47,380 bases of DNA from Candidatus Hydrogenedentota bacterium (lineage in GTDB: Bacteria > Hydrogenedentota > Hydrogenedentia > Hydrogenedentales > CAITNO01): contig JAKJCY010000013.1 of the NCBI GenBank assembly GCA_022706235.1, positions 1-47,380 of the forward strand, written 5' to 3'. A program made the translations under genes and the position numbers. Below the pieces are notes generated by a model. The model was not told where the DNA came from. It saw only the letters and a program-made list of their open reading frames with translations, and ran no database searches. Below, in pieces: positions 4,509 to 42,788 of this stretch (positions are counted from its first letter, which is position 1; the number at the start of each line of letters is the position of its first letter).

Positions 4509-5266
4509 TCAAATGGAGAAGCCGCCATCACAAGGGATAACGGCACCCGTCACATAACCGGAGGCATCAGAGGCCAGGTACAATGCCAGGCCGACAATCT
4601 CATCAGGCAGGGCATGTCGCCCTAGAGGGGTTTTATTCACATAGTGCTCATGGAGTTCCGGTGTTTCCAGAAGCACACGGGAAAAACGCGTTTCCGTTAA
4701 TCCAGGGCAGATGCAGTTACAGCGCACGCTGGACCCGCCCAGCTCGCGGGCAATGACTTTTGTCATCATAATCACCGAGGCCTTGGTCATGGCGTACAGG
4801 CCCATCATCGGCGAGGGGCTTAGTCCCTCTATAGAAGCGATATTAATAATGGAACCGCCCCCTGTTGAACCATCATGCGCGCCCCATACTGTCCTGTCAA
4901 AAAATATCCCTTAACGTTGACTTCAAAGGTCTTGTCGAAGGCTGACTCCTCCGCCGCGATGAAGGGGCCAAAATACGGGTTGGTTGCTGCGTTATTGACA
5001 AGAATGTCAAGTTTTCCAAACTTCTTCCCGATCCTGTTGAAAAGGACATCCACCTCGTTGGCCTTTGCGGTATGGCAAGCCATTCCTACTACATTACCGC
5101 CCTCACCCTGAATTGCGGCGACAGTATCCTCTATCGCGGACTGTTTGCGTGCGGCAATAATGACCGTGGCGCCTTGTTCGGCAAAGCCCCGCGCGATAGC
5201 CGCACCGATGCCCCGACTTCCACCGGTTATCAAGGCGATCTTGTTTTCGAGCGTGGACGGTGTCAT
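4509..5266 (-). pseudogene. Short-chain dehydrogenase/reductase (SDR), frameshifted
   Basis: Two consecutive frames make up one classical SDR of about 252 residues. The first (5266 to 4829) holds the NAD(P)-binding TGGSRGIGAAIA and the NNAA motif; the second (up to 4509) holds the catalytic YAMTK and the C-terminal CPGLTETRF and YVTGAVIPCDGGFSI. The frames are joined if one base is added to the run of five C at 4858-4862 (five G on the coding strand); this restores the expected strand G-G-G-S-I-I-N-I-A-S-I-E-G before the active site. So this is either a recent single-base deletion, a slippage site or a sequencing error. The protein would be a cytoplasmic oxidoreductase of unknown substrate. 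It starts 15 bases after the MazG-like gene and likely shares its transcript. Confidence 0.85.
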
Positions 5267-5281
5267 AGGTGGGGATTCCCT

Positions 5282-5701
5282 TTATAAGGTTTTCTTTTCA
5301 CGGGCTTTTTCATCGGCCCAGGCATCCATCGCTTCTTGCGGGGTCTGCGCCCGCTCCGTGGCAAACACATGCCTGTGGCGCCGCATCATTTTTTCATAGG
5401 CCCGGTTCAGTGCGGATGCCAGGGCAAAACGCCCTTCCTCTTCCGCGGCGGCCATGCAGGCGAGCAGGGTGAACAGGCAGTCTCCAAACTCCTCTTCCGC
5501 GAGCCGGTTATCACCCGAAGCAAGCGCCTCAACAAGTTCCCCCGCCTCATCCACAGCGAATCCCGCAAAATCATTGGAGCTATGTGCTTTGTCCCAGGGA
5601 CACCCCTCAGGGGATCTTAAAAAACGTGCCAGTCCCGCCAAGGCGTCAAACCATCCGGATTCGGTATCCGGAGGATACTGTTGTTCCGGCGAATATTTCA
5701 T
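5282..5701 (-). CDS. MazG-family nucleoside triphosphate pyrophosphohydrolase
   Basis: This 139-residue protein is a single MazG domain. It has the family entry motif GCPWDKAHS (residues 33-41), then the metal-binding pair E52-x2-E55 (DEAGE) and E71-x2-D74 (EFGD), and the C-terminal KMMRRHRHVF. MazG enzymes hydrolyse NTPs or dNTPs to monophosphates and pyrophosphate, cleaning the nucleotide pool. E. coli MazG has two such domains; this is the short single-domain form. A clean SD (AAGGA, six bases from the ATG) supports the start. It is the first gene of a likely unit with the SDR and perhaps galK. Confidence 0.88.
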   Translation of the reverse strand: MKYSPEQQYPPDTESGWFDALAGLARFLRSPEGCPWDKAHSSNDFAGFAVDEAGELVEALASGDNRLAEEEFGDCLFTLLACMAAAEEEGRFALASALNRAYEKMMRRHRHVFATERAQTPQEAMDAWADEKAREKKTL

Positions 5702-21116: not shown

Positions 21117-21594
21117 CCATATTCTCCCATAAAGGCAAAGAAGTTTTTCTGCGCATGCGAGATGCAGGGGGCGCTGATAGCGGGCTGTTGGCGGTATTCT
21201 ATACGTCCCATAGGCCCCGTACATCCTATAAAAGTTCCAAGCCATCGCCAAAATCAGGAAATGAAACGGGAAAGTAAGACGTGGCATGGAACTTTACGGT
21301 ATTTTCGCCGATCGCCCGCCTGGGATGAGACACATTCTCATGAGTCCGTTGACTTACCCGAAATGCGTCAAATTTTTGGAAGCAAAAAGGTGAGGTTAAG
21401 GTTTTTCGCAGGACTTCTTCAACAGCAATCCCACCTTGATAGACAATATTCTTTATTTCATAAAGAACCAGTTGCGCGCGCTACTTGTGGACGGTCACGT
21501 GCAAAAAAAGCGTTGCAGAAATACTGTAGATTAGTTATAATACTTTTAAATCTATGGTAAATACTATTGCTTTTAAAAACAAGGAGGAGGGATC
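21117..21594. other. Upstream region of the giant SUMF1-domain gene
   Basis: These 478 bases hold no supportable gene; one 132-codon frame has no SD and no recognisable domain. Its 3' end becomes AT-rich and includes the promoter candidate at 21513-21541 and a strong SD at 21581-21587. Confidence 0.5.
21513..21541 (+). promoter_or_regulatory. Putative sigma-70 promoter of the giant SUMF1-domain gene
   Basis: A -35-like TTGCAG (21513-21518), a 17-base spacer and a perfect -10 TATAAT (21536-21541) are seen. Transcription would start near 21548, giving a leader of about 47 bases, with the SD AAGGAGG seven bases from the ATG at 21595. The -35 box matches the consensus only in part. Confidence 0.6.
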
Positions 21595-24500
21595 ATGCTA
21601 TTCAAAGTTTTCGTGAGTGCGATCGGGGTGTGTCTTGCTTTCAATGCGGTTGCGGTAACGGGCATCGGTACTTCTTCAACAACACCGCTGGAGACGATGT
21701 CGCCTTCGCTGCAATCCGTGTTGGCGGTCACGGAGAAGCGCCTTTCAGCGACTTTCAGCGAAGCGATGCTTACGCCGGATAGTACAACCCCGGGCAATTA
21801 CATTGTGTCAGGCCTGGGCGTAGGCACGCTGGTTCCCTCACCGACAAGCGTGTCAGGCGGCCCGGCGGTTTTCACGCTCGATTGGGCCTCCGGTGAGATG
21901 CGTGATGGCGTTTCCCTCACGCTCACGGTATCGGGCATGCAGGACGCCGTGGGCAATCCTATTAACTCCGCAGCGAATAATGCGTCCTGTGCGGGCAGGG
22001 GCGCGGCGCCGGTATTCAGCGACCTGATGGTGATGCCGCCCAAGGCGGGGTTGGGCGAGAAAGTTACGATTACCTTTGCCGTATCTGAAACGCTTCAGTC
22101 CGATCCGGAAGTAACTATAAACGGTCATCCGGCCACCGCGCCCTACGGCAAGGCGGAAACTTACCTGTATGAATATGAAGTACAGGAAGACGACCCCTTG
22201 GGCATGGCGGTGATTCATATTTCCAGTGCGGACCTGGCGGGTAACGTGGGAACGTTAAACAACACCAGCGCGCTGGAAATTCTGGAAGAATCGGAAGACC
22301 TGCCGCTGTGGGGCTGGCCGTTTGCAGCAGCGCTGTTGCTGGTACTGGGTTTGGTGTTACTGTGGCGGCGACGGTTTGGCGGTGTTGGGGTATGGACGGG
22401 ATGGACTGGAAGGACGGGAGAAACTGCCGGATCAACCGCCGCCAAGTCCCCCTTTGAAGGGGGTGGCGCGAAGCGCCGGAGGATGTTCTTCTTGTTTGTT
22501 GCGTTGATTCTGGCGTGCTCCTGGGCTTTCGCTCAGACCCCTACCGTCTCCAACGTCACCATGACCCAATCGCCCAACGCGACGTCCACGCAAGTGGACA
22601 TCTACTATGACCTCGATGCGCCGAACGGTCCCTGCGCCATTACCGTGTCCCTGTCCAAGGATGGCGGCGCGGACGGCTTTATGCATCCCGTCACGTCGGT
22701 CGTTGGTGATCTTTCCGGCGTAACCACAGGCACCGGCTACCACATCGTGTGGGATATCCGCGCCGACTATCTCGAGGAAGACCTGCCGAACGCGCAGGTG
22801 CTGATTACGGCGGATGATGGGGTTGTAATACCTGAAGTGGCATCCTTCACAATCAACAACGACGCGGTCACGACCGCAGACCCGGTGGTGACGCTGGACA
22901 ACACCGCGATGAACAGCCCGACGGAATATATGGCCAGCGAGGAAAGCGATTTCAGAGGCGCGACCTGGCAGCCCTATGACACGGCGCCCACCTTCACGCT
23001 TTCTTCGGTCGAAGGCGGCATGAAGACGGTGTACTTCAAGCTGCGCAATGCGGCGGGTGAATCGGCGCCTGTCAGTGACACTATAATTCTGGTTGAGGAG
23101 CGGACAATATTGCTTCCCGGGGATGTGCCGCTCGAATTGGTGTGGATGCCTTCGGGCAGTTATCAGATGGGACGGTATCCGGGCGAAGCGGAGAGTTCTG
23201 ATATTGAAGACCCGCAGCATCCTGTGACGCTGGCGTACGGGTTCTGGATGGGCAAGTACGAGTTGACGCAGCAGCAATGGCTGGCGGTGCGCGGTTCGTG
23301 GCCGCAATTCGCGCCATCCGCTACCTACGGGATCGGCGACACCTATCCCGCCTATTTTGTTTCTTGGAATGATGCGAAGAATTTCATCACAACCCTGAAC
23401 GCGCATATTGTGAGCAGTGGCCAGGGACCGTTGGCACTGAGGCTGCCCAGTGAGGCGGAGTGGGAGTATTCTTGCCGTGCGAGCACACAGACGCGCTTCT
23501 ACTGGGGCGACGATCTGACCTACACAGAGATTGGGACCTATGCGTGGTGTTACAGCAACAACAGCCCGAGCGGCACCAAGCCCGTGGGCGGGAAACTGCC
23601 GAATGCCTTTGGTCTGCACGACATGAGCGGCAACGTGCAAGAATGGTGTGAAGACGATGTGCATTGGAGTTACACCGGGGCGCCCGCGGACGGGAGTGCG
23701 TGGATTGACTCCCCGCGGGCCGAGAGCCGGTTTTTCCGGGGCGGCGCTTACGGCTCTTCCAGCGGTTGCCGCTCGGCGGCTCGGTTAGCCGGCGTGGCGA
23801 GCGCTCGGGGTTATTTTATCGGGTTCAGGCTGGCTGCGGATCTCCCTCCGACGGTGACGGACTTTGCCATCAACGGGGGGGCGTCCACGACGGCGGATCC
23901 GGTGGTGACCCTGGATAATACGACCGACGACCGGGCAACGGAATTCATGGCGAGCGAAGCGAGCGATTTCAGCGGCGCAACCTGGCAGGCCTATGGCACA
24001 GCGCCTACCTTCACGCTCTCCTCCGCCGAAGGCGGCACGAAGACCGTGTATTTCAAGGTGCGCAATGCGGCGGGTGAATCGGCACCCATCAGCGACACCA
24101 TAAATCTGGTTGAAGAGCGGACCATCCTGCTTCCCGGCGAAGTACCGCTCGATCTGGTATGGGTGCCTTCGGGCACTTACCAGATGGGCCGCTATCCGGG
24201 CGAACTGGACGGCGCTTCGAATGAAGACCCGCAGCATCCGGTGACGCTGGCGTATGGCTTCTGGATGGGCAAGTACGAGATCACACAGCAACAGTGGCTG
24301 GCGGTGCGCGGTTCGTGGCCGCAATTCGCGCCATCCGCTACCTACGGGATTGGCGACACCTATCCCGCCTATTGGATTTCATGGAACGACGCGAAGGATT
24401 TCATCACGTCGCTGAACGCGCATATTGTAAGCAGCGGACAAGGACCATTGACGGTGCGTCTGCCCAGCGAGGCAGAGTGGGAGTATGCATGCCGGGCAGG

Positions 24501-27500
24501 AACGCAGACCCGCTTCTACTGGGGCGACGATTTGACCTATACAGCGATTGAGATGTACGCGTGGTACAACGGCAACAACAGCCCTATGGGCTGCAAGCCC
24601 GTGGGCAGCAAGATAGTGAATGCGTTTGGGTTGTATGACATGAGTGGCAACATGTGGGAGTGGTGCGATGACGACTACCACACGAGTTACACGGGCGCGC
24701 CGGCAGACGGGGGCGCTTGGATTAACTCCCCAAGGGCCTCGTACCGGACGATCAGGGGTGGCGCCTGGTGGTACGCGGCTAAGAATTGCCGCTCGGCTTT
24801 TCGTTACTATTACCTGCCGCACCTTCGAACCGACATGATCGGGTTCCGGCTGGCCGCATCTTTCAACGTAACTTCCTTTGCGATCAACAATGGCGCGACT
24901 ACAACGGCGGATCCCGTGGTGACGCTGAACAACACGTGCGTAGGGGGGCCGACGGAATACATGGCCAGCGAGTCGCCCGATTTCAGCGGAGCCAGCTGGC
25001 AACCCTACGATACGGCGCCGACCTTCACGCTTTCTTCCGCCGAAGGCGGCACGAAGACGGTGTACTTCAAGGTGCGCAATACTGGAGGCGAATCGGTGCC
25101 GGTCAGCGACACCATCGAGTTGACGGGGCAGACCATTACCCTGCCCGGCGATGTGCCCCTCGAACTGGTGTGGGTGCCTGGCGGGACCTTCATGATGGGC
25201 CGGTATCCGGGCGAGGCGGACAGCAGTGATAAAGAAGATCCACAGCATCCGGTAACGCTGGCGTATGGCTTCTGGATGGGTAAATACGAAATCACACAGC
25301 AGCAATGGTTCGCGGTACAAGGTGCCTGGCCGGGGTGGCCGCCGATGGCAGGAAATGGAGTGGGTGATACCTGTCCGGTGTACTTCCCTTCGTGGTATGC
25401 GGCCCAGGGTTTTGTTACGTCCCTGAATGCTCATATTGTCAGCAGCGGCCAGGGGCCGTTGACGGTACGGCTGCCCAGCGAGGCGGAGTGGGAGTATGCC
25501 TGCCGCGCGGGAACACAAACACGGTTCTATTGGGGCAACGATGCCGATTACACCCAGATTGGGGACTATGCCTGGTACAGTGGCAACAACAGCCCGATCG
25601 GTTGCAAGCCCGTGGGCGGAAAGCTGCCAAACGCTTTTGGTCTGTACGACATGAGCGGCAACGTGTACGAGTGGTGCGAAGATGACGGCCATTATGACTA
25701 CACCGGCGCGCCATCGGATGGCAGCGCGTGGGTGGATTCGCCTCGGGGCTTGTTCCGCGTGTACCGGGGCGGCGAGTGGAGCTACAACGCTTCGAGATGT
25801 CGATCGGCATATCGGTACACAATGGGTCCGGGTAATTCGAGCTATAACCTTGGGCTCCGTATTGCCGCGGTGCCGACCCAGGTCGTGTCTTTCGTCCTCA
25901 ATGGCGGCGCGGCCACGACGGCCGATCCGGTGGTGACGCTGGACAACACGGCGACAAACAGCCCGACGGAGTACATGGCAAGCGAGTCGCGGGATTTCAG
26001 CGGCGCAGTATGGGAGCCCTACGATGCGGCACCGGTCTTCACGCTTTCTTCGAGCGCAGGCGGCACGAAGACCGTCTATTTCAAGGTACGGAATGGGTTG
26101 GGGGAATCGGCTCCGGTGAGCGACACCATTGACCTCACGGGCCGGACCGTTACCCTTCCGGGGGATGTGCCGCTCGAGCTGGTATGGGTGCCCGGCGGGA
26201 CCTTCATGATGGGCCGCTATCCGGGCGAGGCGGACAGCGTCGCTGGAGAAGACCCGCAGCATCCTGTAACGCTGGCCTATGGCTTCTGGATGGGCAAGTA
26301 CGAGATCACCCAGCGGCAGTGGCTGGCCGTGCGCGGCGCGTGGCCGGACGAGTCCCCATCGTCTGGTGTCGGCAACACTTATCCCGCCTATAACATCTCC
26401 TGGGATGATGCGAAGGAGTTCATCACGGCCCTGAACGCGCACATTGCGGGCAGCGGCCAGGGACCGCTGACCGTGCGGCTGCCCAGCGAGGCCGAGTGGG
26501 AATACGCTTGCCGGGCGGGGACAACCACGCGCTTCTATTGGGGCGATGATCTGACCTACACAGAGATTGGGACTTATGCCTGGTACTTTGGCAACAACAG
26601 CCCGAGCGGGACCAAGCCCGTTGGCGGGAATCTGCCGAATACCTTTGGACTGTATGATATGAGCGGCAACGTGTACGAGTGGTGCGAAGACGACTACCAT
26701 TCGAGTTATACCGGCACTCCGGCGGATGGCAGCGCGTGGGTGGAGTCACCCCGGGCTGAGCACCGGATAGTCCGCGGCGGCTGCTGGATCGCCGACGCCA
26801 GGTGCGGCCGGTCGGCGTATAGGGACAGCCGCACACCGGACGCTCGGTACAGCGTCATCGGGTTCCGCTTGGCTGCAGTGCCGACCCAGGTCGTATCTTT
26901 CGCCATCAACGGCGGCGCGGCCACGACAACCGATCCGTTGGTGACGTTGGACAACACGGCAACGAACAGCCCGACGGAGTACATGGCGAGCGAGGCGGGC
27001 GATTTCAGCGGCGCAACCTGGCAGCCCTACGACACAGCGCCAACCTTCACGCTTTCTTCGAGCGAAGGCGGCACGAAAACGGTGTATTTCAAAGTACGCA
27101 ACGCGGGAGGGGAATCTGCGCCGGTGAGCGATGCCATCAACATTACGGAGCGGATCATTACGCTTCCGGACGAGGTGCCGCTCGAACTGGTTTGGGTGCC
27201 TTCGGGGAGTTACCAGATGGGCCGCTATCCGGGTGAGGCAGATAGCTCTGACATAGAAGATCCGCAACATCCGGTGACGCTGGCGTACGGGTTCTGGATG
27301 GGCAAGTGCGAGATCACCCAGCAGCAGTGGCTGGCGGTGCGCGGCTCGTGGCCGAGTATGGCACCGTCTGTTACCTGGGGGCTCGGAGACAGCTATCCCG
27401 CCTATTTCGTTTCATGGAATGATGCCAGAGACTTCATCACGACGTTGAATGCGCATATAGTGAGCAGCGGCCAAGGATCGCTGACGGTGCGGCTGCCCAG

Positions 27501-29163
27501 CGAGTCGGAGTGGGAGTATGCGTGCCGGGCCGGTACGCAGACGCGCTTCTACTGGGGCGACGATTTGACCTACACAGAGATTGGGACCTACGCGTGGTAC
27601 TCAGGCAACAACACACCGAGCGGCACCAAGCCTGTGGGCGGGAATCTGCCCAACATCTTTGGTCTCTATGACATGAGCGGCAACATATCAGAATGGTGCG
27701 AAGATGACGTGCATTGGAACTACATCGGAGCGCCGGCGGACGGGAGCGCGTGGATGGACTCGCCGCGGACTGATACCAGGGTATTCCGGGGCGGCAATTA
27801 CAGCAGCCTCAGTGGCTGCCGCTCGGCGTATCGGTCCGGCGGAATAGTGGGCGCTCGAGGGTACTTCCTCGGGTTCCGGGTGGCGGCTCTGCCGACCAAG
27901 GTGATGACTTTGGCCATTAACGGTGGTGCGGCCACGACGACCGACCTGCTGGTGACACTGAACAATACGGCGACGAACAGCCCGACGGAATATATGGCGA
28001 GCGAATCTTCGGATTTCAGCGGCGCAGCGTGGACCCCGTACAGCGTTGCGCCAAGTTTTACGCTGTCCTTCGGCGTCGGAGTCCGGACGGTGTACTTCAA
28101 GGTGCGCGGTGTGGATTGCCAGGAGTCCGAAGTCGCCAGTGACACGATCTTCGTACTGCCGGACACGGTGCCGGTGGGCACGGGGACCTTCACGATGGGA
28201 CGAACCGCGTCCGGCGATGACGCGACGTATGGTTCCGCCGACGAACTCCCGCAGCATGAGGTAACGCTGGGGGCTTACCAGATCGGGAAATATGAAGTGA
28301 CGAACAAAGAGTATTGCGATGTCTTGAATTGGGCAAAAGCGAAAGGGTATCTCTATGCGGATGTCGCCGGGACGCCTTGGACGGGTTTGAGCAGCATTTA
28401 CGCTGGTGGCACGACTGGCAGCCGCTACCTCGCCGTCAACGTCACTTCCACCACCTGCAACATCCTGTATTCGGGCGGCGTATTCAAGTCGAAGACCTGT
28501 GTGGGGTTGCCCGGCACGACGAGCTACGCCATGGACACGCACCCGATGGTTGAGTTGTCCTGGTGCGGCGCGGTAGCGTTCTGCAACTGGCTGAGCGAGT
28601 GGCAGAAGCTGACGCCCTGTTACGATATGAATTCGCCGGATTGGCCACTCGTGGTGGCGCCGCCGACACCGGGCGGCTATCGCTTGCCGACGGAAGCGGA
28701 GTGGGAACGGGCAGCGGCATGGGATGGGTCGAAGCATTGGGTCTACAGTTTTATCAGCGATACGCTGACCGGCAAGGACCGGGTGAACTACTGGGACTCC
28801 GCTCCAGATTATGTCAATCCGCTGGGCCTGACGACAGAGCCCTATACCTCGCCCGTGGGGTGGTTCAACGGTGTAAATGTGAGTCCGAACGGTAGCGTGG
28901 CCACAGTGGACAGTCCCAGCCCGGTCGGGGCGTACGACATGAGCGGCAATGTTTCGGAAATGTGCCACGACCGGTTTTCGAGCACCTACTACAGCGGTGG
29001 TTCCATGACGAATCCCACGGGGCCTGCTACAGGCACGAGCCGCGTCGTTCGGGGCGGCACCTACCCCGTCAATCGTGGCTATAGTCGTTCTGCGGACCGA
29101 ACGTCCAGCGGCCTGACGACCCCCAACAAAGGTCGCGGATTCCGCCTCACCAGGTCAGACTGA
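21595..29163 (+). CDS. Giant multi-domain protein with six SUMF1/FGE-type domains
   Basis: The single frame encodes 2522 residues. Residues 1-24 form a signal peptide. A bacterial Ig-like (SbsA/Big_5-like) domain follows (about 35-130), then a second beta domain, then a helix with basic end (LPLWGWPFAAALLLVLGLVL, RRR, about 236-261). At residue 297 a second signal-like sequence begins (MFFLFVALILACSWAFA), followed by a DIYYDLD Ig-like domain. From about residue 424 there are six units of 336-339 residues: each has a short beta module (TADPVVTLDNT ... VYFKVRN) and a SUMF1-type domain (VPLELVWVPSG, RLPSEAEWEYACRAG, FGLYDMSGNVYEWCEDD, GFRLAA). Five are very alike; the last is divergent. The conserved catalytic Cys pair of formylglycine-generating enzyme is not seen, so a binding or surface role is more likely. 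It is strongly initiated (AAGGAGG SD). Confidence 0.85.
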   Translation: MLFKVFVSAIGVCLAFNAVAVTGIGTSSTTPLETMSPSLQSVLAVTEKRLSATFSEAMLTPDSTTPGNYIVSGLGVGTLVPSPTSVSGGPAVFTLDWASGEMRDGVSLTLTVSGMQDAVGNPINSAANNASCAGRGAAPVFSDLMVMPPKAGLGEKVTITFAVSETLQSDPEVTINGHPATAPYGKAETYLYEYEVQEDDPLGMAVIHISSADLAGNVGTLNNTSALEILEESEDLPLWGWPFAAALLLVLGLVLLWRRRFGGVGVWTGWTGRTGETAGSTAAKSPFEGGGAKRRRMFFLFVALILACSWAFAQTPTVSNVTMTQSPNATSTQVDIYYDLDAPNGPCAITVSLSKDGGADGFMHPVTSVVGDLSGVTTGTGYHIVWDIRADYLEEDLPNAQVLITADDGVVIPEVASFTINNDAVTTADPVVTLDNTAMNSPTEYMASEESDFRGATWQPYDTAPTFTLSSVEGGMKTVYFKLRNAAGESAPVSDTIILVEERTILLPGDVPLELVWMPSGSYQMGRYPGEAESSDIEDPQHPVTLAYGFWMGKYELTQQQWLAVRGSWPQFAPSATYGIGDTYPAYFVSWNDAKNFITTLNAHIVSSGQGPLALRLPSEAEWEYSCRASTQTRFYWGDDLTYTEIGTYAWCYSNNSPSGTKPVGGKLPNAFGLHDMSGNVQEWCEDDVHWSYTGAPADGSAWIDSPRAESRFFRGGAYGSSSGCRSAARLAGVASARGYFIGFRLAADLPPTVTDFAINGGASTTADPVVTLDNTTDDRATEFMASEASDFSGATWQAYGTAPTFTLSSAEGGTKTVYFKVRNAAGESAPISDTINLVEERTILLPGEVPLDLVWVPSGTYQMGRYPGELDGASNEDPQHPVTLAYGFWMGKYEITQQQWLAVRGSWPQFAPSATYGIGDTYPAYWISWNDAKDFITSLNAHIVSSGQGPLTVRLPSEAEWEYACRAGTQTRFYWGDDLTYTAIEMYAWYNGNNSPMGCKPVGSKIVNAFGLYDMSGNMWEWCDDDYHTSYTGAPADGGAWINSPRASYRTIRGGAWWYAAKNCRSAFRYYYLPHLRTDMIGFRLAASFNVTSFAINNGATTTADPVVTLNNTCVGGPTEYMASESPDFSGASWQPYDTAPTFTLSSAEGGTKTVYFKVRNTGGESVPVSDTIELTGQTITLPGDVPLELVWVPGGTFMMGRYPGEADSSDKEDPQHPVTLAYGFWMGKYEITQQQWFAVQGAWPGWPPMAGNGVGDTCPVYFPSWYAAQGFVTSLNAHIVSSGQGPLTVRLPSEAEWEYACRAGTQTRFYWGNDADYTQIGDYAWYSGNNSPIGCKPVGGKLPNAFGLYDMSGNVYEWCEDDGHYDYTGAPSDGSAWVDSPRGLFRVYRGGEWSYNASRCRSAYRYTMGPGNSSYNLGLRIAAVPTQVVSFVLNGGAATTADPVVTLDNTATNSPTEYMASESRDFSGAVWEPYDAAPVFTLSSSAGGTKTVYFKVRNGLGESAPVSDTIDLTGRTVTLPGDVPLELVWVPGGTFMMGRYPGEADSVAGEDPQHPVTLAYGFWMGKYEITQRQWLAVRGAWPDESPSSGVGNTYPAYNISWDDAKEFITALNAHIAGSGQGPLTVRLPSEAEWEYACRAGTTTRFYWGDDLTYTEIGTYAWYFGNNSPSGTKPVGGNLPNTFGLYDMSGNVYEWCEDDYHSSYTGTPADGSAWVESPRAEHRIVRGGCWIADARCGRSAYRDSRTPDARYSVIGFRLAAVPTQVVSFAINGGAATTTDPLVTLDNTATNSPTEYMASEAGDFSGATWQPYDTAPTFTLSSSEGGTKTVYFKVRNAGGESAPVSDAINITERIITLPDEVPLELVWVPSGSYQMGRYPGEADSSDIEDPQHPVTLAYGFWMGKCEITQQQWLAVRGSWPSMAPSVTWGLGDSYPAYFVSWNDARDFITTLNAHIVSSGQGSLTVRLPSESEWEYACRAGTQTRFYWGDDLTYTEIGTYAWYSGNNTPSGTKPVGGNLPNIFGLYDMSGNISEWCEDDVHWNYIGAPADGSAWMDSPRTDTRVFRGGNYSSLSGCRSAYRSGGIVGARGYFLGFRVAALPTKVMTLAINGGAATTTDLLVTLNNTATNSPTEYMASESSDFSGAAWTPYSVAPSFTLSFGVGVRTVYFKVRGVDCQESEVASDTIFVLPDTVPVGTGTFTMGRTASGDDATYGSADELPQHEVTLGAYQIGKYEVTNKEYCDVLNWAKAKGYLYADVAGTPWTGLSSIYAGGTTGSRYLAVNVTSTTCNILYSGGVFKSKTCVGLPGTTSYAMDTHPMVELSWCGAVAFCNWLSEWQKLTPCYDMNSPDWPLVVAPPTPGGYRLPTEAEWERAAAWDGSKHWVYSFISDTLTGKDRVNYWDSAPDYVNPLGLTTEPYTSPVGWFNGVNVSPNGSVATVDSPSPVGAYDMSGNVSEMCHDRFSSTYYSGGSMTNPTGPATGTSRVVRGGTYPVNRGYSRSADRTSSGLTTPNKGRGFRLTRSD
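22447..22477. repeat. Palindromic repeat inside the giant reading frame
   Basis: Two adjacent hairpins lie in frame: CCCCC, TTTGAA, GGGGG at 22448-22463 and GGCGC, GAA, GCGCC at 22465-22477, then GGAGG and an ATG at 22483. This looks like an intergenic dispersed repeat rather than coding sequence. A partial copy of the first hairpin (TCCCCCTTTGAAGGG) is at 30280-30294, between genes. Confidence 0.75.
22864..29163 (+). repeat. Six tandem ~1.01-kb coding repeats (SUMF1 units)
   Basis: Matching codons of the ATTADPVVTL module occur at 22864, 23881, 24895, 25909, 26917 and 27928, giving periods of 1017, 1014, 1014, 1008 and 1011 bases. All are multiples of three, so the frame is kept. Units one to five are closely similar at the base level; the sixth shares the first module but has a divergent SUMF1 domain with extra insertions. 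Confidence 0.9.
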
Positions 29164-29240
29164 AGGCTGAAATTTTAAGGATGGAGGATGAAGGTTGAAA
29201 GATAAACGATCTTGGTGCGCGGTGCGTTCAAGACATTTTC

Positions 29241-29360
29241 CTGCTTCGAAAATTGGGACCCATTTTCATGGTTTCAGGGTGAGCCATCGGCTCATGGCAA
29301 CTGCTTCGAAAATTGGTACCCATTTTCGTGGTTTCCGGGTGAGCCAGAGGCTCATGGCAA
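29241..29360 (+). repeat. 60-bp tandem duplication
   Basis: Two copies of a 60-base unit (29241-29300 and 29301-29360) differ at only a few positions; both contain CTTCGAAAATTGG, CCCATTTTC and GGCTCATGGCAA. A third, degraded partial copy follows from 29361. It lies between the giant gene and the transposase element; the stretch 29164-29437 has no convincing gene. Confidence 0.85.
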
Positions 29361-29437
29361 CTGGTTCCCAAATTCTTGTCATTGCCCACAGGTCACGAGT
29401 GAGAAAGTATCAACACAAAAAGTGCCAGTTTGCTCTT

Positions 29438-29495
29438 CGAATCCCAAGGGGATTCTATAACAAAGCCCAGGGTTGCGGTACTCCGCTACCCTGGG
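29438..29495 (+). repeat. Left terminal inverted repeat of the transposase element
   Basis: Outer hairpin GAATCCC, AAG, GGGATTC (29439-29455), a short AT-rich link TATAACAAAG, then the 30-base palindrome at 29466-29495. Confidence 0.85.
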
Positions 29496-29616
29496 TTTGC
29501 GGCCCCCCCCTATGTGTTTACCCCAACGGGGTTGCGTCCGAATCCGCAGCTGCGATACGATTCTTTGCGGTAAGATATTGCCACATCACCCGCACTATCT
29601 TAAGAGGAGTATCACC

Positions 29617-30072
29617 ATGCCCCAATCGCTGACGGCGGTCTATCTTCACTTGGTATTTTCAACCAAAAATCGTGTCGCTTATCTCCGCGACACCCAAATA
29701 CGAGAGGAAATGCACGCCTATCTGGGCGGCGTTTCCAACAAACTCGGCGCACCCGCGTTGTTGATTGGCGGCACGGACGACCACGTTCATGCGCTCTGCC
29801 GTTTGGGACGCTCCATTACATTGGCCGATTGGGTGAAGGAACTCAAACGGGCGTCGAGCCTTTGGATAAAAAAACGCGCATCGGACCAACATGAGTTCGC
29901 GTGGCAATCGGGATACGGCATTTTTTCCGTGAGCGCATCCAATATTGAGTCCGTGGAAACATACATCGCCGATCAGGTTGAACATCACCGTAAACAGACC
30001 TTTCAAGAGGAATTCCGTTTGTTGTTGAAGAAGCACGGGATGACGTGGGATGAGCGGTACCTGTGGGAGTGA
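29617..30072 (+). CDS. IS200/REP-associated Y1 tyrosine transposase
   Basis: The 151-residue protein is a single Y1 transposase (HUH) domain. It has the family opening LTAVYLHLVFSTKNR, the metal-binding H56-V57-H58 (DDHVHALC) and the nucleophile Y116 (ETYIADQVEHHRK). The length is right for a complete enzyme of the IS200/RAYT group, which cuts and joins single-stranded DNA at hairpins. The start at 29617 has AGAGGAG at a proper distance; a longer frame upstream runs through the left palindrome and is not likely used. The gene is flanked by the hairpins that it presumably recognises. Confidence 0.92.
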   Translation: MPQSLTAVYLHLVFSTKNRVAYLRDTQIREEMHAYLGGVSNKLGAPALLIGGTDDHVHALCRLGRSITLADWVKELKRASSLWIKKRASDQHEFAWQSGYGIFSVSASNIESVETYIADQVEHHRKQTFQEEFRLLLKKHGMTWDERYLWE

Positions 30073-30115
30073 CGCAACCCCCTTGGGGTAGACAGGGTGG
30101 GGGTCACTCACGTCA

Positions 30116-30173
30116 CCCAGGGTAGCGGAGTACCGCAACCCTGGGCTTTGTTATAGGATCCCTTTGGGGTTCG
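30116..30173 (-). repeat. Right terminal inverted repeat of the transposase element
   Basis: Reverse-complement match of the left end: the 30-base palindrome at 30116-30145, then CTTTGTTATA and an outer hairpin with GGATCCC and GGGGTTC-like arms. Three of 58 positions differ from the left end. Confidence 0.85.
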
Positions 30174-30324
30174 TAACGCGCAAAATCACGCTTCGTTTTC
30201 ATGTACCCATCATCATGATGTGTGGGTAATGACAAGAAGGGAATTTAGGAACCGGAGCGTCGTGCCAAGGGCTTAAGAATCCCCCTTTGAAGGGACTTGT
30301 CAGTCGAAAACGCGCTCGCTGGCG

Positions 30325-33132
30325 TCAGTCCCTGTTTTTGCGTTTTTGGGTCGGGGCGGGGGCGAGCGGGGCGGTGAGCTGTTCGTAGCGTTGGAAGAGG
30401 TATTCCACCCGTTCCCGTTCGCTGGTGAATTTGGCGCGGCGGTAGCAGCGGTCCACGGCGCGGTCGAGGGCCTGGTGCGCCTTCAAGAGCGGCGCGGGCA
30501 TGTACAGCGGATCATAGAGGTCGGCCAGGGTGGAACCGTCGTCCAGATAGCCCTGGCGCACGTCCAACACCCCTTGCGCGCAGCCCTCCACCTGGGCACG
30601 CTGTTCATCCGTTGCCTCCATCGGCCACGGGAAGTTGTTGTAGACCAGCTTTGCCGAATAACGATACCGGGATTCAAGCCGTCCGCAAACCTGGCGCACC
30701 CATGCCATGTGCATGGCGCTGGTCAGGACGCCGAAGTGATAGGGGGTGGCGTTCGGACATAATTTTACGAGGTTACTGCAAATGACAGGTGGAGAAAGGT
30801 ATCCGAAAGGAATATACGGACGTCGCTCAGAACTGACTTCTGGAATTACAAGGAAATCACCATCCGGGAAGTTCTCCACATGGAAACGCCGTGGCGTTTC
30901 AGCCAGTTTTTGCGTGGGTTTACTCTTACTTGCTCTGCGGAGTGCCTGCACCGCATCAATGCGCTTCCTGCATTCCGGCAGATTGCGCAACTCATGTGCA
31001 GGCGCATCGCCCAACCACAGGCACCAGCGATGATAACCATGGAGGAATTCATGAGACCCTATCCAAGGTTGGAAGTACTTATCTGCGTTGGGTTCTTTTT
31101 GGAGGAATGCCTGCTTTTCTTCTTCGGTGAATAAGTAGTTGCCGCCGTCAATTGGTTTGTTTCCTATGCCTATTTCGGGAACATCACACAGGGGTTCAGA
31201 ACGATTGGTGATGGTAATATCGCCACCCTCTACAAGATACGGATTGATGTTGGCCACCAATATCGCAACAGGTTCTCCTTTGATATCCTCGTATTCAAAA
31301 ATCCGTTTTACAGGCATATCCTTTAATCCGAAGCCTATTATCACAACGTGAACATGGGCTTTCCCTTTGGCCTCACTTTGCCACGAAAAGGTTCTATGGG
31401 CAAAGTGGATTTTCGCTCCTGCGTTGAAAAGGGCCGACCATAGGACGCCGACCTGTTCCCCTTGGGAAATGGAGTTGGTGGAGACAAAAGCACAGCGTAT
31501 AGAGGTGTCTTTGATGTACCTGACGGATTTGAAATACCACAGGGTTACGTAGTCCAGCAATCCGTTCCCATCAACATCTCCCGCTATATGTTGCAAATCT
31601 TCTCGCTGCTCAGGTGTCTGGAACTTTGCGCCCACAAACGGCGGATTGCCCATGACATAGGAACATTCGCTTGCGGGGAGGAGGTCGTTCCAGTCCATGC
31701 GCAGGGCGTTGGCGCAGCGGATGTGGGGGCAGGCCTTGAGGGGGATGCGCTGGAAGAGATTGCCGGTTTTGAGGCTGAGTTCGACGTTCATCTGGTGGTC
31801 GGTGAGCCAGAGGGCGGTTTCGGCGATGCGGGCGGGCCATTCGCCGATTTCGATGCCGTAGAACTGGTTGACGTCAATGCGGGCGGCGCGGCCTTCCGCG
31901 CCGAGATCGAGTTCCTCGCCGTGCTGTTCGAAGTCGTAGAGTTCATCGAGAATCTGATGTTCGAGGCGGCGCAGTTCGCGGTAGGCGATGACGAGGAAGT
32001 TGCCGCAGCCGCAGGCGGGGTCGAGAAAGCGGAGTTGGGTCAGTTTTTCGCGGAAGGCCTTGAGCCGGGCGTCGCGGTTGCCCTTGCGCGTGTCTTTTTT
32101 GATCTGGTCGAACTCGGCGTGGAGTTCGTCGAGGAAGAGGGGCCGGATCAGTTTCAGGATGTCCCGTTCCGAGGTGTAATGAGCGCCAATCTGGCGGCGT
32201 TCCCGGTCGTCGAGGATGCCCTGGAAGAGGGAGCCGAAGATGGCGGGAGAAATGCGGGACCAGTCGAAGCGGCACGCGGCGAGGAGGCGGTTGCGCATGT
32301 CGCGGTTGAATCCGGCGGTGTGGATGGGGTCCTTGAAGAGGTCGCCGTTGATATAGGGGAACTCCGCGAGGTCTTCGTCCAGGTTCGTGATGCGCTGGTC
32401 CGGCGGGGTGTTGAGCACTTCGAAGAGGTGGTTCAGCTGGGCGCCGAGGTCGGAACCGTCTTCGCGGGTGCGGTTTTCGATGAAGAGGTCAAACTGGGAG
32501 GTTTCGAAGATGCCCGTGTCGTCGGCGAAGAGGCAGAAGAGGAGGCGCACAAGGAGTCGTTCGAGGGCCGCGCCCCGGTAGTTGCCCGCCTCGATGGCAT
32601 CGTGGAGTTCCGCCATGATCGCGGCGGCCTCGAGGTTGGCCGGGTCCTCCTCGCCGAAGCGGTGGGTCTGCTGGCCGATGAAGAAGGCGAAATGCTTGAT
32701 GTGCCGGTGCAGGTCTTGCAGGGGAAACTCGACCATGGCGTCCGCCTGGTCCTTGGCTTCGAGGTCGTAGAGGACCATGCGCGCGAAATCGGACACGACC
32801 ACGTAGCGGGGAATTTCGCTTTCCCGGTGCATGCTGGCGAGTTCGGTGATGTACTGGAAGGCCTGGGACTGGGCCTTGCCCAGGTCCTGTCCCGCACTCT
32901 TGTGTTCCGCCAGCAGTGTCCCCGGCCAGAAGAGATCAATCCGGTGATAGGTGTCCTTCAGGCTTTTGACCTTCTCCTCAAAGGCCGCCAGGAGCCGCCG
33001 TTTCTTGCCGAAGACGGTAAAGAATTCGTTCCAGAAGGTCTGGGCCTCCGCGCGTTCATCGCCGACACCGCGCCACTCCCGCGAAAACTGTATCGCGCGT
33101 TGCCGTATCTCGTTCCAGGATAAATTGGGCAT
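30325..33132 (-). CDS. MmeI-like single-chain restriction-modification enzyme (type IIL)
   Basis: The 935-residue protein has the domain order of MmeI (919 residues): an N-terminal nuclease with D66, E76 and K78 (IDLFWPG ... LLAEHKS, a PD-ExK site), a helical spacer, and an adenine methyltransferase with motif I LDPACGCGNFL (D371) and motif IV NPPFVG (N496). A target-recognition domain (about 640-800) and a C-terminal helical part follow. Such enzymes cut DNA about 20 bases from the site and methylate one strand, in one polypeptide. No separate endonuclease or specificity gene is near. The start at 33132 was chosen because GGGGAG lies nine bases before it; an upstream ATG (33174) lacks this. 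A recent insertion context is suggested by the repeats on both sides. Confidence 0.88.
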   Translation of the reverse strand: MPNLSWNEIRQRAIQFSREWRGVGDERAEAQTFWNEFFTVFGKKRRLLAAFEEKVKSLKDTYHRIDLFWPGTLLAEHKSAGQDLGKAQSQAFQYITELASMHRESEIPRYVVVSDFARMVLYDLEAKDQADAMVEFPLQDLHRHIKHFAFFIGQQTHRFGEEDPANLEAAAIMAELHDAIEAGNYRGAALERLLVRLLFCLFADDTGIFETSQFDLFIENRTREDGSDLGAQLNHLFEVLNTPPDQRITNLDEDLAEFPYINGDLFKDPIHTAGFNRDMRNRLLAACRFDWSRISPAIFGSLFQGILDDRERRQIGAHYTSERDILKLIRPLFLDELHAEFDQIKKDTRKGNRDARLKAFREKLTQLRFLDPACGCGNFLVIAYRELRRLEHQILDELYDFEQHGEELDLGAEGRAARIDVNQFYGIEIGEWPARIAETALWLTDHQMNVELSLKTGNLFQRIPLKACPHIRCANALRMDWNDLLPASECSYVMGNPPFVGAKFQTPEQREDLQHIAGDVDGNGLLDYVTLWYFKSVRYIKDTSIRCAFVSTNSISQGEQVGVLWSALFNAGAKIHFAHRTFSWQSEAKGKAHVHVVIIGFGLKDMPVKRIFEYEDIKGEPVAILVANINPYLVEGGDITITNRSEPLCDVPEIGIGNKPIDGGNYLFTEEEKQAFLQKEPNADKYFQPWIGSHEFLHGYHRWCLWLGDAPAHELRNLPECRKRIDAVQALRRASKSKPTQKLAETPRRFHVENFPDGDFLVIPEVSSERRPYIPFGYLSPPVICSNLVKLCPNATPYHFGVLTSAMHMAWVRQVCGRLESRYRYSAKLVYNNFPWPMEATDEQRAQVEGCAQGVLDVRQGYLDDGSTLADLYDPLYMPAPLLKAHQALDRAVDRCYRRAKFTSERERVEYLFQRYEQLTAPLAPAPTQKRKNRD

Positions 33133-33330
33133 GGTACTGCGCTCCCCGTTCTTGTAAGCGGGATTATACGCCAAGTAGTACTCGCGTTCCCAAGTCGCGC
33201 GGCGCAGGAAGGTCCTTTTTCGGGGCTTCTTTTTTTCCCGGTGAGCCGATTTTGAGCCATTTTATGCTAAGTTCAGTAATTGCAATGCTTTATTGCCGCA
33301 GGAAACACGAAAACACTGGTTGCGGAATGA

Positions 33331-33510
33331 TTTTTCCGGCGGAAAAATGGTTTTTCCGCTGGAAAAATGATTTAGCAGGGAGCAGATTGATTTTTCCGCT
33401 GGAAAAATGGTTTTGCAGGGAGCAGATTCGTTTTTCCGCTGGAAAAATGGTTTTGCGGGGAGCAGATTCATTTTCCCGCTGGAAAAATGGTTTTTCCGCT
33501 GGAAAAATGG
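33331..33510. repeat. Palindrome array in 20-bp register
   Basis: The 180 bases divide exactly into nine 20-base blocks. Six are palindromic (P), TTTTTCC, GCT or GGC, GGAAAAA then TGG or TGA, at 33331, 33351, 33391, 33431, 33471 and 33491. Three are spacers (S), near TTTTGCAGGGAGCAGATTCN, at 33371, 33411 and 33451. The order is P-P-S-P-S-P-S-P-P, itself symmetrical. It lies in the gap between the divergent MmeI-like gene (start 33132) and the rhamnosidase-like gene (start 33672). Spacers are alike, so it is not a CRISPR array. Repeated operator sites or a structured element are both possible. Confidence 0.9.
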
Positions 33511-33532
33511 CGTAGGAAAGGGAATACCCACT

Positions 33533-33548
33533 GTTTCCGCGCGGAAAC
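33533..33548. repeat. Perfect 16-bp palindrome beside the array
   Basis: GTTTCCGC followed by GCGGAAAC is an exact palindrome, close in sequence to the array blocks (TTTCCGC ... GGAAA) and 23 bases past the last one. It may be a diverged member. The remaining parts of the 539-base gap (33133-33330 and 33549-33671) hold no gene I can support. Confidence 0.75.
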
Positions 33549-33671
33549 GCCTTTGGCTGTCTTGTGCGTGGATGCTCCCGTGCGGGATGGGCAGTCCTCG
33601 CCGTAATAACCCGAAAAATAGAATGACGCGCCCGCTTTATGATAAAACAAGCCGGTAGAAAGGAGGCGCAC

Positions 33672-36098
33672 ATGATACACGCCTTAGCCGCAATGACGGT
33701 ATTGATTTGTTCCGGGGCAACCGCTCCGGTGTTTTCCACGGCGCGGCCGGTCTGGCTGGAAGGCCGCGAAACGGAGATGAATGTGTTCGCGGGGTTTCGG
33801 GGTGTTTTTGAGAACCCCGAGGCGTCTTCCGTACAGGTGCGCGTTGCCGCGGCGACCCTGTACCGCGTCTTTGTAAACGGGGCCTTCGTGGGCCATGGTC
33901 CGGCCCGGGGCCCGCATGGGTATTATCGCGTTGATGAATGGGATATCGCCCCGCAGTTGAAGGCGGGCGCAAACGTGGTGGCCCTTGAGGTGGCGGGGTA
34001 TAACGCGAACAGTTACTATGTGCTGGACCAGCCGTCGTTCGTGCAGGCGGAAGTGGTCGCCGACGGCGCGGTGCTTGCCGCTACCGGTGCCGGCGACCGG
34101 CCTTTTGAAGGCTTTCCCATCACCGCACGGGTGCAGAAGGTGCAGCGCTACAGTTTTCAGCGTCCCTTTATCGAGGTCTATGCGCTGAAACCCGGTTTTG
34201 ACGCGTGGCGTTCGCAAGAAAGTGTCCCCGTTCCCGCCGTAACGCTCGTTGAAACCGGGCCGAAACAGCTTCTGTCCCGGGGCGTTCCCCAGCCACGTTT
34301 TGAGGTGCAGCCGGTAGTGCGGCATCTTTCATCGGGCACGTTTGCGCAGGGGAATTTGGAACACCCGTTTCGCGACCGTAGCCTGGTGGAAATCAGTGAA
34401 AAACTGAAAGGCTATCCTGAGGGCGAACTGGACATTATTGTCTCGGACCTGCTTTGTACGCTGCATAACACCGCCCTTACGCCTGAGAATACGCCGCTAG
34501 ATGATGCTGCGACGTTCTCCATAAACACGGGTCAATTTCATGTAGTTGACCTGGGCACAAATCTGACCGGTTTCCTGAAATTAAACGTGGTCTGTGAGGA
34601 ACCGACCCGCCTGATAGCCACCTTTGATGAAACGGAAACGAAATCCGATGTGAACTGGCGGCGGCTGGGATGCGTCAACGCGCTGCTGTTTGACCTTGAA
34701 ACAGGGGAGTATGCGCTGGAGGCCTTCGAACCGCACACGATGCGGGTGGTTAAACTGATGGCCGTGTCCGGGAAGTGTACGGTGTCGGGCGCGGGGCTGC
34801 GGCGTTACGAACATCCCGGGGCGGTGCGCGCGGCATTTCAGTGCGCCGATGAGAAACTCAACCGTATTTTCGAGGCGGGACGCACCACCTTTGCCCAGAA
34901 TGCGGTGGACATTTTCATGGACTGCCCCCATCGCGAACGGGCCGGCTGGCTGTGCGATTCCTATTTTACCGCTCGGTCTGCCCTGGCCCTTACCGGAACG
35001 GTGGACGTGGAACATAATTTCATTCAGAACTTCCTGTTGCCCGACGGGTTCGCCCATCTACCCGAGGGCATGCTGCCCATGTGCTATCCGTCGGACCACT
35101 ATGACGGCGTATTTATCCCGAACTGGTCGCTGTGGTTCGTCATGGAACTGGGGGAATACGCCGCGCGCGGGGGGCGGGCGGACCTGATTGCCGCGGCGCG
35201 TCCCAAAATCGAAGCGCTCTTCAGGTATTTTGCGAAACTGGAAAACGAAGACGGGGTGCTGGAGAAACTGGAAAGTTGGGTTTTTGTCGAGTGGAGCGCC
35301 GCCAACAAGTTCGTGCAGGAAATCAACTACCCTTCCAATATGCTCTATGCCGGCGCCCTTGATACGGCGGCATCGCTTTTTAACGTTCCGGAATGGAAAG
35401 ACAAAGCGGTCGCCCTGCGAAAAACCATACGGGCCCAATCGTTGAAAGGTCCGTTCTTTGTGGACAACGCCAACCGGGTGGATGGCAAAGTGACACCCAC
35501 CGATAATATGACGGAGGTATGCCAGTACTTCGCCTTTTATTTCGGGGTTGCCACGCCGGAAACCGATGGGGAACTGTGGTGCATTTTGATGGACGAATTC
35601 GGGCCGCAACGTCAGGAAAAGGGCCTGTACAAGGAAGTCCATCCGGCCAATGCCTTTATCGGCAACATGCTGCGTTTCGAGCTGCTTTCCCGGGAAGGCC
35701 GGACGGACCAGACGCTCCGCGAGATGGGGGACTACCTGATGTACATGGTGGAACGCACCGGCACCCTCTGGGAGAACCAGCAGGACCATGCCAGCCTGAA
35801 CCATGGCTTTGCTTCCCATGCCGTGGTGACCCTGTACCGTGACGTCCTCGGCGCTCATGAAATCGATCTAGTTAATAAGCGCGTGACCGTCAGGCTGAAT
35901 CCCACAGCATTGCCGGCGTGTTCCGGAAAACTCCCCGTTGGGGACGACTTTATCAGCCTTGCCTGGCGACAGGATAGCGACACCGTGTCGCTATTTGCCG
36001 AAATGCCGGTAGGCTTCACCCTTCAGGTAGAGAATAATACCGGAAAGACGCTGAATCGTGTTGATACACCCGACGCGCTGGTCAGTGGCGAAAAGTAA
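33672..36098 (+). CDS. Secreted alpha-L-rhamnosidase-like protein (GH78-type)
   Basis: The 808-residue protein starts with a weak signal peptide (IHALAAMTVLICSGATAPVFS). An N-terminal beta-sandwich (VFVNGAFVGHGPARGPHGYY) matches the rhamnosidase N-terminal lectin-like domain, and the middle is an (alpha/alpha)6 barrel with the family motif DCPHRERAGWLCD at residues 417-429, where GH78 enzymes have DCPQRDERLGW. The C-terminal beta domain is present. It would release rhamnose from plant or bacterial polysaccharides. The motif differs somewhat from the canonical one, so the exact substrate is open. A strong SD (AAAGGAGG) fixes the start at 33672. Confidence 0.82.
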   Translation: MIHALAAMTVLICSGATAPVFSTARPVWLEGRETEMNVFAGFRGVFENPEASSVQVRVAAATLYRVFVNGAFVGHGPARGPHGYYRVDEWDIAPQLKAGANVVALEVAGYNANSYYVLDQPSFVQAEVVADGAVLAATGAGDRPFEGFPITARVQKVQRYSFQRPFIEVYALKPGFDAWRSQESVPVPAVTLVETGPKQLLSRGVPQPRFEVQPVVRHLSSGTFAQGNLEHPFRDRSLVEISEKLKGYPEGELDIIVSDLLCTLHNTALTPENTPLDDAATFSINTGQFHVVDLGTNLTGFLKLNVVCEEPTRLIATFDETETKSDVNWRRLGCVNALLFDLETGEYALEAFEPHTMRVVKLMAVSGKCTVSGAGLRRYEHPGAVRAAFQCADEKLNRIFEAGRTTFAQNAVDIFMDCPHRERAGWLCDSYFTARSALALTGTVDVEHNFIQNFLLPDGFAHLPEGMLPMCYPSDHYDGVFIPNWSLWFVMELGEYAARGGRADLIAAARPKIEALFRYFAKLENEDGVLEKLESWVFVEWSAANKFVQEINYPSNMLYAGALDTAASLFNVPEWKDKAVALRKTIRAQSLKGPFFVDNANRVDGKVTPTDNMTEVCQYFAFYFGVATPETDGELWCILMDEFGPQRQEKGLYKEVHPANAFIGNMLRFELLSREGRTDQTLREMGDYLMYMVERTGTLWENQQDHASLNHGFASHAVVTLYRDVLGAHEIDLVNKRVTVRLNPTALPACSGKLPVGDDFISLAWRQDSDTVSLFAEMPVGFTLQVENNTGKTLNRVDTPDALVSGEK

Positions 36099-42713: not shown

Positions 42714-42788
42714 GTCATTCCGGTCTTTTCGCGGCCTGGCACCCTCTTCGATATACGTCCTTTTTCCACCGCGAAAAACCGGAATGAC
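42714..42788. repeat. Inverted repeat with GTCATTCCGG ends
   Basis: The arms (21 and 20 bases) pair with one gap, around a 34-base centre. The ends GTCATTCC and GGAATGAC are those of a well-known type of intergenic dispersed repeat. Confidence 0.7.

Follow-up and report, generated by a model that had tools for sequence, protein, structure and literature searches.

A 20-bp palindrome ladder as the probable core of an interspersed intergenic repeat family

The array of palindromes at 33331–33510 in the window, that is, the whole stretch of 47,380 nucleotides that was analysed, is probably the core of an interspersed repeat family. The family would have spread by insertion or recombination, and its near-identical units would form a ladder, either of sites bound by a dimeric protein or of hairpins. 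As judged from the sequence comparisons, the class is best read as a lineage-restricted modular repeat of the general kind of BOX, STAR and REP, with a helically phased palindromic core. The 20-bp step appears to matter, as the preliminary description of this DNA had proposed, because it is kept across the arrays although the unit sequence changes.

In the case of the window locus (C44), nine blocks follow one another in exact 20-bp steps, and the order described earlier, P-P-S-P-S-P-S-P-P, was borne out. The same palindrome, TTTTTCC-N3-GGAAAAA, had been reported six times; five of the P blocks match it exactly, while the block at 33471 has one mismatch and the loop of the first block is GGC, not GCT. 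The three S blocks are related in sequence and near-identical to one another. The palindrome was matched seven times in the window at up to two mismatches, namely by the six array copies and one site at 42761, whereas 100 dinucleotide-preserving shuffles of the window gave a mean of 0.36 and a largest count of 3. The symmetrical block order amounts to about 3.7 repeats of a 40-bp P-S composite, the outermost blocks on either side being P. The related perfect 16-bp palindrome reported at 33533 is also present, and the array lies, as described, in the gap between a restriction-modification gene on the minus strand and a rhamnosidase-like gene on the plus strand. The features of the locus are as follows.

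21146..33229, no strand: stretch adjoining the left block, without counterpart in contig C79 of G002, where about 1 kb of other sequence stands instead
30325..33132, minus strand: Type IIG restriction-modification gene (MmeI domains, by domain matches; ATG start at 33132 read from the sequence)
33206..33330, plus strand: left block of the element (homology to C505 starts at 33206; six-copy alignment)
33291..33307, no strand: worn palindrome (11/14 arm positions), 40 bp ahead of P1 and keeping the 20-bp register
33331..33347, no strand: palindrome P1, loop GGC (exact match)
33351..33367, no strand: palindrome P2 (exact match)
33371..33390, plus strand: S block 1, non-palindromic (block comparison)
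33391..33407, no strand: palindrome P3 (exact match)
33411..33430, plus strand: S block 2 (block comparison)
33431..33447, no strand: palindrome P4 (exact match)
33451..33470, plus strand: S block 3 (block comparison)
33471..33487, no strand: palindrome P5, one mismatch (TTTTCCC; pattern match)
33491..33507, no strand: palindrome P6 (exact match)
33508..33587, plus strand: right block, common to C44, C505 and the orthologous C79
33533..33548, no strand: outlying perfect 16-bp palindrome GTTTCCGCGCGGAAAC, about two units past P6 and within about 2 bp of the register
33672..36098, plus strand: alpha-L-rhamnosidase-like gene (PF17389, by domain match), with a Shine-Dalgarno-like AGGAGG at its start

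The window genome (G000) is a draft of 5.03 Mb in 545 contigs, and all genomes used were draft, multi-contig assemblies. The preliminary description had suggested a search of genomes for arrays with a 20-bp step, and this search yielded further copies, but within a narrow range. The exact palindrome was found at three loci of G000 (C44, C227 and C505), with homology reaching beyond the array: 33206–33519 of the window is 82% identical to C505, and 33260–33518 is 74% identical to C227. In the sister species G002, a congener, array matches were found at four loci (C242, C79, C146 and C956). Contig C242 is 99.6% identical to C505 over 1175 bp and, binned in G002, carries the G000 unit type, unlike other aligned stretches of the two genomes, which differ by about 8–14%; this near-identity possibly reflects mis-binning or very recent sharing or transfer. 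C242 and C505 were counted as one array, and six distinct arrays were thus compared (C44, C505, C227, C79, C146 and C956). A third species, G003, holds only a remnant of the element. In the pattern search of 68 genomes of the order, including G000, arrays were present only in G000 and G002, and besides the G003 remnant none was found in the other 65.

A sequence-only model (R1) of 112 positions, made of the last 72 bases of the left block and two units, scored the seven full loci at 89.8–97.7 bits and the G003 remnant at 24 bits. It was searched in the 17 of the 68 order genomes that belong to the family, with 150 first-look candidates scored per genome, and the others were covered by pattern alone. 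Several lesser matches were not counted as arrays: weak R1 matches (E 0.0096–0.1) in G004, G006, G008, G011 and at C484 of G002, lone exact palindromes in G004, G017, G023, G034 and G035, BLAST matches of 23–26 bp in G001 and G008, and single matches at the 3-mismatch limit in G008 and G028, the letters of which hold no repeated unit. A relaxed three-unit pattern matched 38 stretches among the genome contigs, and only L094 and L110 are this palindrome-ladder element; the remaining stretches, judged by eye and five of them closely, are other 20–21 bp T/A-tract repeats or chance matches, their spacing being selected by the pattern itself. T-tract/A-tract arrays with a 20-bp step were also observed elsewhere (L102, L122, L092, L113, L125 and L111; Chitinophagaceae, Bacteroidetes, Sphingobacteriales, Tannerella and a Methanimicrococcus), and the units of L102 agree at the tract edges but differ from one another in their centres. 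At E 0.01, the array was matched in none of 72,556 plasmid records and none of 50,697 phage records, and a phage or plasmid origin was rejected on this ground. In viral contigs, the stricter pattern gave no match and the relaxed three-unit pattern gave one, without a long array. A protein search with the chance open reading frame through the array of the window returned no homologue, and no report of this 20-bp palindrome-ladder family was found in the literature, as judged from the titles listed.

The copies share a modular plan over an element length of about 300–380 bp. The left block is present in all six distinct arrays and ends in TGCGGAA-YGA; just before the first palindrome it ends in TTGCGGAATGA in C44 and in TGCGGAACGA in the other five. 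Subsequently come the units, always in exact 20-bp steps: nine in C44, C505, C79 and C956, and eight in C227 and C146. Compared with the right block of C44, the match of C505 was equalled by 3 of 200 shuffles and that of the orthologous C79 by none of 200. The right block of the G003 remnant matches C505 (0/200 shuffles) but not C44 directly (168/200), and in three of the six arrays (C227, C146 and C956) a right block is not clear.

Three unit types were distinguished by consensus: TTTTTCC-GCT-GGAAAAATGR in C44, C505 and C227, TTTTTCA-CGC-TGGAAAATGR in C79, and TTTTCCA-CGC-TGRAAAAYCA in C146 and most of C956. Relative to C44, the C79 unit has gained one base in the centre and lost one in the A tract, and the step is still 20. 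The consensus of arm pair 7 was changed on both sides, from C-G to A-T. Arm pair 5 went from T-A to C-G in four of the eight C146 units and is mismatched in the consensus of C79, C146 and C956. All seven arm pairs are intact in 18 of the 52 units (5/9 in C44, 4/9 in C505, 4/8 in C227, 1/9 in C79, 4/8 in C146 and 0/9 in C956), and at least five of the seven in 44; the other eight units are the S blocks.

The likeness of the units across loci was compared with that of their flanks, leaving out the S blocks (8 of the 52 units). Among C44, C505 and C227, the P units are 0.86–0.90 alike and the left flanks 0.69–0.70. C44 and C79 are the same locus, with identities of 0.93 over the first 300 bases of the gene and 0.78 over the DNA that separates the gene from the element. 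The P units of these two, in register, are 0.68 alike, whereas those of C44 are 0.90 like C505 and 0.89 like C227, with the left flanks of C44 being 0.69–0.70 identical to those of all three. C79 units are 0.76–0.77 like those of C146 and C956, the flanks being 0.49, and C146 and C956 have values of 0.86 for units and 0.82 for flanks. In most, but not all, of the compared pairs, P units from different loci of one genome resemble each other more closely than their flanks do, and this suggests that units may be homogenised, or held alike, across loci within one genome. When gaps were allowed, the C44 and C79 arrays were 0.75 identical, near the value of 0.78 for the intergenic DNA next to the element; thus, the change is one of kind, with the same unit shift, more than one of rate.

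Unit number may also turn over. A partial protein from another Hydrogenedentes MAG (P0123) reads through an array with C146-like flanks, and it fits the C146 locus best with exactly two whole units removed, when 52 of 56 residues agree; removal of none, one or three units gives 43, 44 and 38, respectively. Judged from this one peptide, the core copy number would differ between MAGs by two units, with eight in C146 and six fitting P0123.

The loci were compared with those of relatives. Since the MmeI gene lies inside the stretch 21146–33229, which is absent at this locus in G002, the restriction gene is not a fixed partner of the array. Orthologues of the rhamnosidase are present in 13 of 17 family genomes, and the upstream sequence was read in six. 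The array precedes the gene in both G000 and G002, where hemL is located elsewhere, and in G003, G001, G013 and G008 the gene directly follows a hemL-like gene, with no array between; the hemL-like open reading frames were listed for G003 and G001 and read from the upstream sequence for G013 and G008. In the case of the HGD-D dehydratase, the array is upstream in G000 (C227) and absent in G003 and G002, the only further congeners with this gene; G001 is without it. This is not a clean empty site because the gap in the relatives is filled by a different inverted repeat, AAAGGAC...GTCCTTT (L152, L153), and the membrane-protein paralogue differs. Similarly, yggS has the array in G002 and none in G003 or G001; in G000 it sits at a contig end, its upstream unassembled. 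In C956, the reading frame of a PAP2 phosphatase enters the array and stops inside it. Of its first 219 residues, 218 are identical to those of the nearest database protein (P0001), after which array-coded residues stand in place of the normal tail of P0001, the unoccupied site being known as this protein alone. The junction would have arisen recently, by insertion or by a rearrangement at the array, and TTTCTC unit variants, present in C956 and in no other array, speak against a mis-join with another copy. Taken together, some sites look recently or secondarily occupied.

Other sequences were observed near the copies. Within the stretch absent from C79, a 2522-aa open reading frame (21595–29163) gave six formylglycine-generating-enzyme (sulfatase-modifying factor) domain matches. 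An IS200-like Y1 transposase gene (Y1_Tnp, 29617–30072) lies about 3.3 kb from the array; it is flanked by 88-nt inverted repeats of its own (29409–29496 and 30115–30202), different from the array palindromes, and preceded by a pair of 60-bp repeats with a GAGCC..GGCTC palindrome (29241–29360). Sequence similar to the Y1 region was seen by eye to the right of the C505/C242 array (L052, about 1140–1250). Moreover, another dispersed intergenic sequence, also identified by eye, is common to two G002 loci, one of them beside the C146 array (L153, about 1380–1500; L054, about 5190–5310).

Two other classes were rejected, as they had been in the preliminary description. The array is not a CRISPR, as the S blocks are near-identical and there are no unique spacers, nor is it a row of terminators, as the two terminator-like sites in 33050–33750 lie outside it and shuffles give 1.3. 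On either strand, all six arrays fold better as RNA than their shuffles (60 in each case; z -4.2 to -11.3), and the 183-nt array of C44 reaches an MFE of -87.9 (z -9.6). These values are consistent with a transcribed structural RNA, in which the strand with TGG spacers would be predicted to fold into a long rod and be processed or stabilise a transcript. However, any row of palindromes folds well, no Rfam family was matched at gathering score in the window, and the better-folding strand differs between copies, being the element strand in C44, C505, C227 and C79 and the opposite strand in C146 and C956. C227, whose block order is P-P-P-S-P-S-P-P, neither keeps the symmetry of the C44 array nor forms one rod; on this account whole-array symmetry was dropped as a selected feature, and a structural RNA was judged very unlikely. 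A plain minisatellite of local extent, neither part of an element nor under selection, would agree with the 40-bp higher-order repeat, with the two-unit length difference between MAGs and with the similar divergence of array and neighbouring DNA between C44 and C79. It was nevertheless considered highly improbable and is largely refuted by the shared left block, which recurs with related units at unrelated loci; moreover, indels in the unit leave the period at 20. Plasmid iterons and ParR-bound centromeres make use of ladders whose sites are spaced by about two helix turns, and a replication or partition site of this kind might be read into the array. Such a site seems extremely improbable, as there are several separate copies per genome, no match among the plasmid and phage records, and no rep or par family among the scanned neighbour proteins.

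The promoter-linked operator array proposed earlier calls for closer weighing. A dimeric regulator or nucleoid protein would bind each palindrome on one helix face and control the adjoining promoters, and 17-bp dyads at about two turns, the step kept through unit changes with the dyad largely kept, and P units more alike than flanks in most pairs all favour it. All six distinct arrays lie in front of one gene or more, at distances of up to about 420 bp from the start, but an intergenic site will often have a gene start on one side by chance alone. Two arrays lie between divergent genes (C44, C79), three between codirectional genes (C227, C146, C956), one by a contig end (C505) and none between convergent genes, and six arrays are too few to show a promoter preference. 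In a simple wedge model, the bend exceeds that of base shuffles in all six (0/100 shuffles each), but it is not unusual against shuffles keeping the A and T tracts (9–17/100); intrinsic curvature was accordingly dropped as a distinguishing feature, and neither folding nor bending decides function. No sigma-70-type promoter was matched in 33050–33750, against 0.5 in shuffles, other promoter types being outside the model. The proposal was further weakened by the HGD-D and rhamnosidase orthologues examined without an array, by the absence of MmeI from the locus in the sister species, and by the C956 array, which truncates a coding sequence. According to the preliminary description, many copies at intergenic sites unrelated to promoters would point to a mere dispersed repeat, and dispersed copies at unrelated intergenic sites are largely what was found: the genes beside them (MmeI, rhamnosidase, HGD-D dehydratase, a fibronectin-type open reading frame, yggS, a glycosyltransferase and PAP2) are unrelated, without an evident common pathway, regulon or adjoining regulator. 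Operator function was therefore considered unlikely. Quite unlikely, too, is that all arrays of one genome form the recognition ladder of a single sequence-specific protein (a nucleoid protein, a regulator or a Y1-type transposase) whose preference shifted between the sister species, with the outcome that units took on a new sequence throughout the genome, the 20-bp, two-turn step and the dyad plan being retained. Against it, the gapped identity of C44 and C79 (0.75) is near that of their neighbouring DNA (0.78), and the C146 and C956 units are hardly closer than their flanks. If true, it would be the bacterial equivalent of satellite or centromere drive, and 20-bp T-tract/A-tract ladders of similar appearance stand in other phyla.

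Under the preferred reading, an interspersed repeat family with the array as its core, copies would spread as non-autonomous DNA, possibly where the palindromes give rise to single-strand or template-switch events. Slippage and gene conversion would account for the gain, loss and homogenisation of units, something reading the dyad at the two-turn step would keep the spacing and most of the symmetry, and effects on adjoining genes would be incidental and locus-dependent. Three and four loci per genome is a low copy number for a mobile repeat and counts against spread. Moreover, neither a target duplication nor a fixed right end was found for the element copies, and no transposase could be tied to the element. 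The unit type differs between the sister species at several loci, and if this holds in complete genomes, it would be a small testable case of bacterial concerted evolution and an entry point to the origin of intergenic repeats in a phylum that has been little studied.

Among known systems, BOX and STAR elements come closest in the way the repeat would work. Operator, iteron and ParR-centromere ladders are alike in having dyad sites about every two turns and unlike in that the copies here are dispersed, share no evident regulon and adjoin no rep or par gene among the neighbours scanned. The BOX elements of streptococci are described as one 5' module, a variable number of tandem core modules and one 3' module, with predicted stem-loops and with reading frames, open on either strand, that may lengthen coding sequences or make them up (PMC3049150). 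Likened by this description, the present element agrees in its left module, tandem core, stem-loop potential and open frames extending coding sequences, and it differs in its core unit, a 20-bp palindrome, in its phylum, in having 3–4 loci per genome and in a right module that is clear in some copies only.

STAR elements of Staphylococcus are described as direct repeats interspersed in intergenic DNA, at locations that vary from species to species and in copy numbers that grow and shrink; their 14-bp GC-rich units are separated by at least 40 bp, and loci keep distinct sequences (PMC3532100). To the extent of that account, the interspersed intergenic repeats and their variable locations and copy number are shared, whereas the units here are palindromes that follow one another with no spacer and tend to resemble each other from locus to locus within a genome. 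REP, BIME and REPIN sequences, grouped with RAYT transposases, are short extragenic palindromes in clusters (PMC3733652). The clustering is similar, and a Y1 transposase gene is near, but with its own inverted flanks. However, the copy number is low (three and four loci), the palindromes stand head-to-tail in a fixed register, and neither GTAG nor CGTC lies directly at the P feet. The P palindromes are followed by TGG, TGA or similar; by eye, GTAG occurs a few bases 3' in the S blocks of C505 (3/3) and C227 (2/2) but not of C44 (0/3), where it occurs once after the last P. Thus, the bacterial interspersed repeats compared here are either palindromes or tandem units, whereas the present element combines both in a strict two-turn register.
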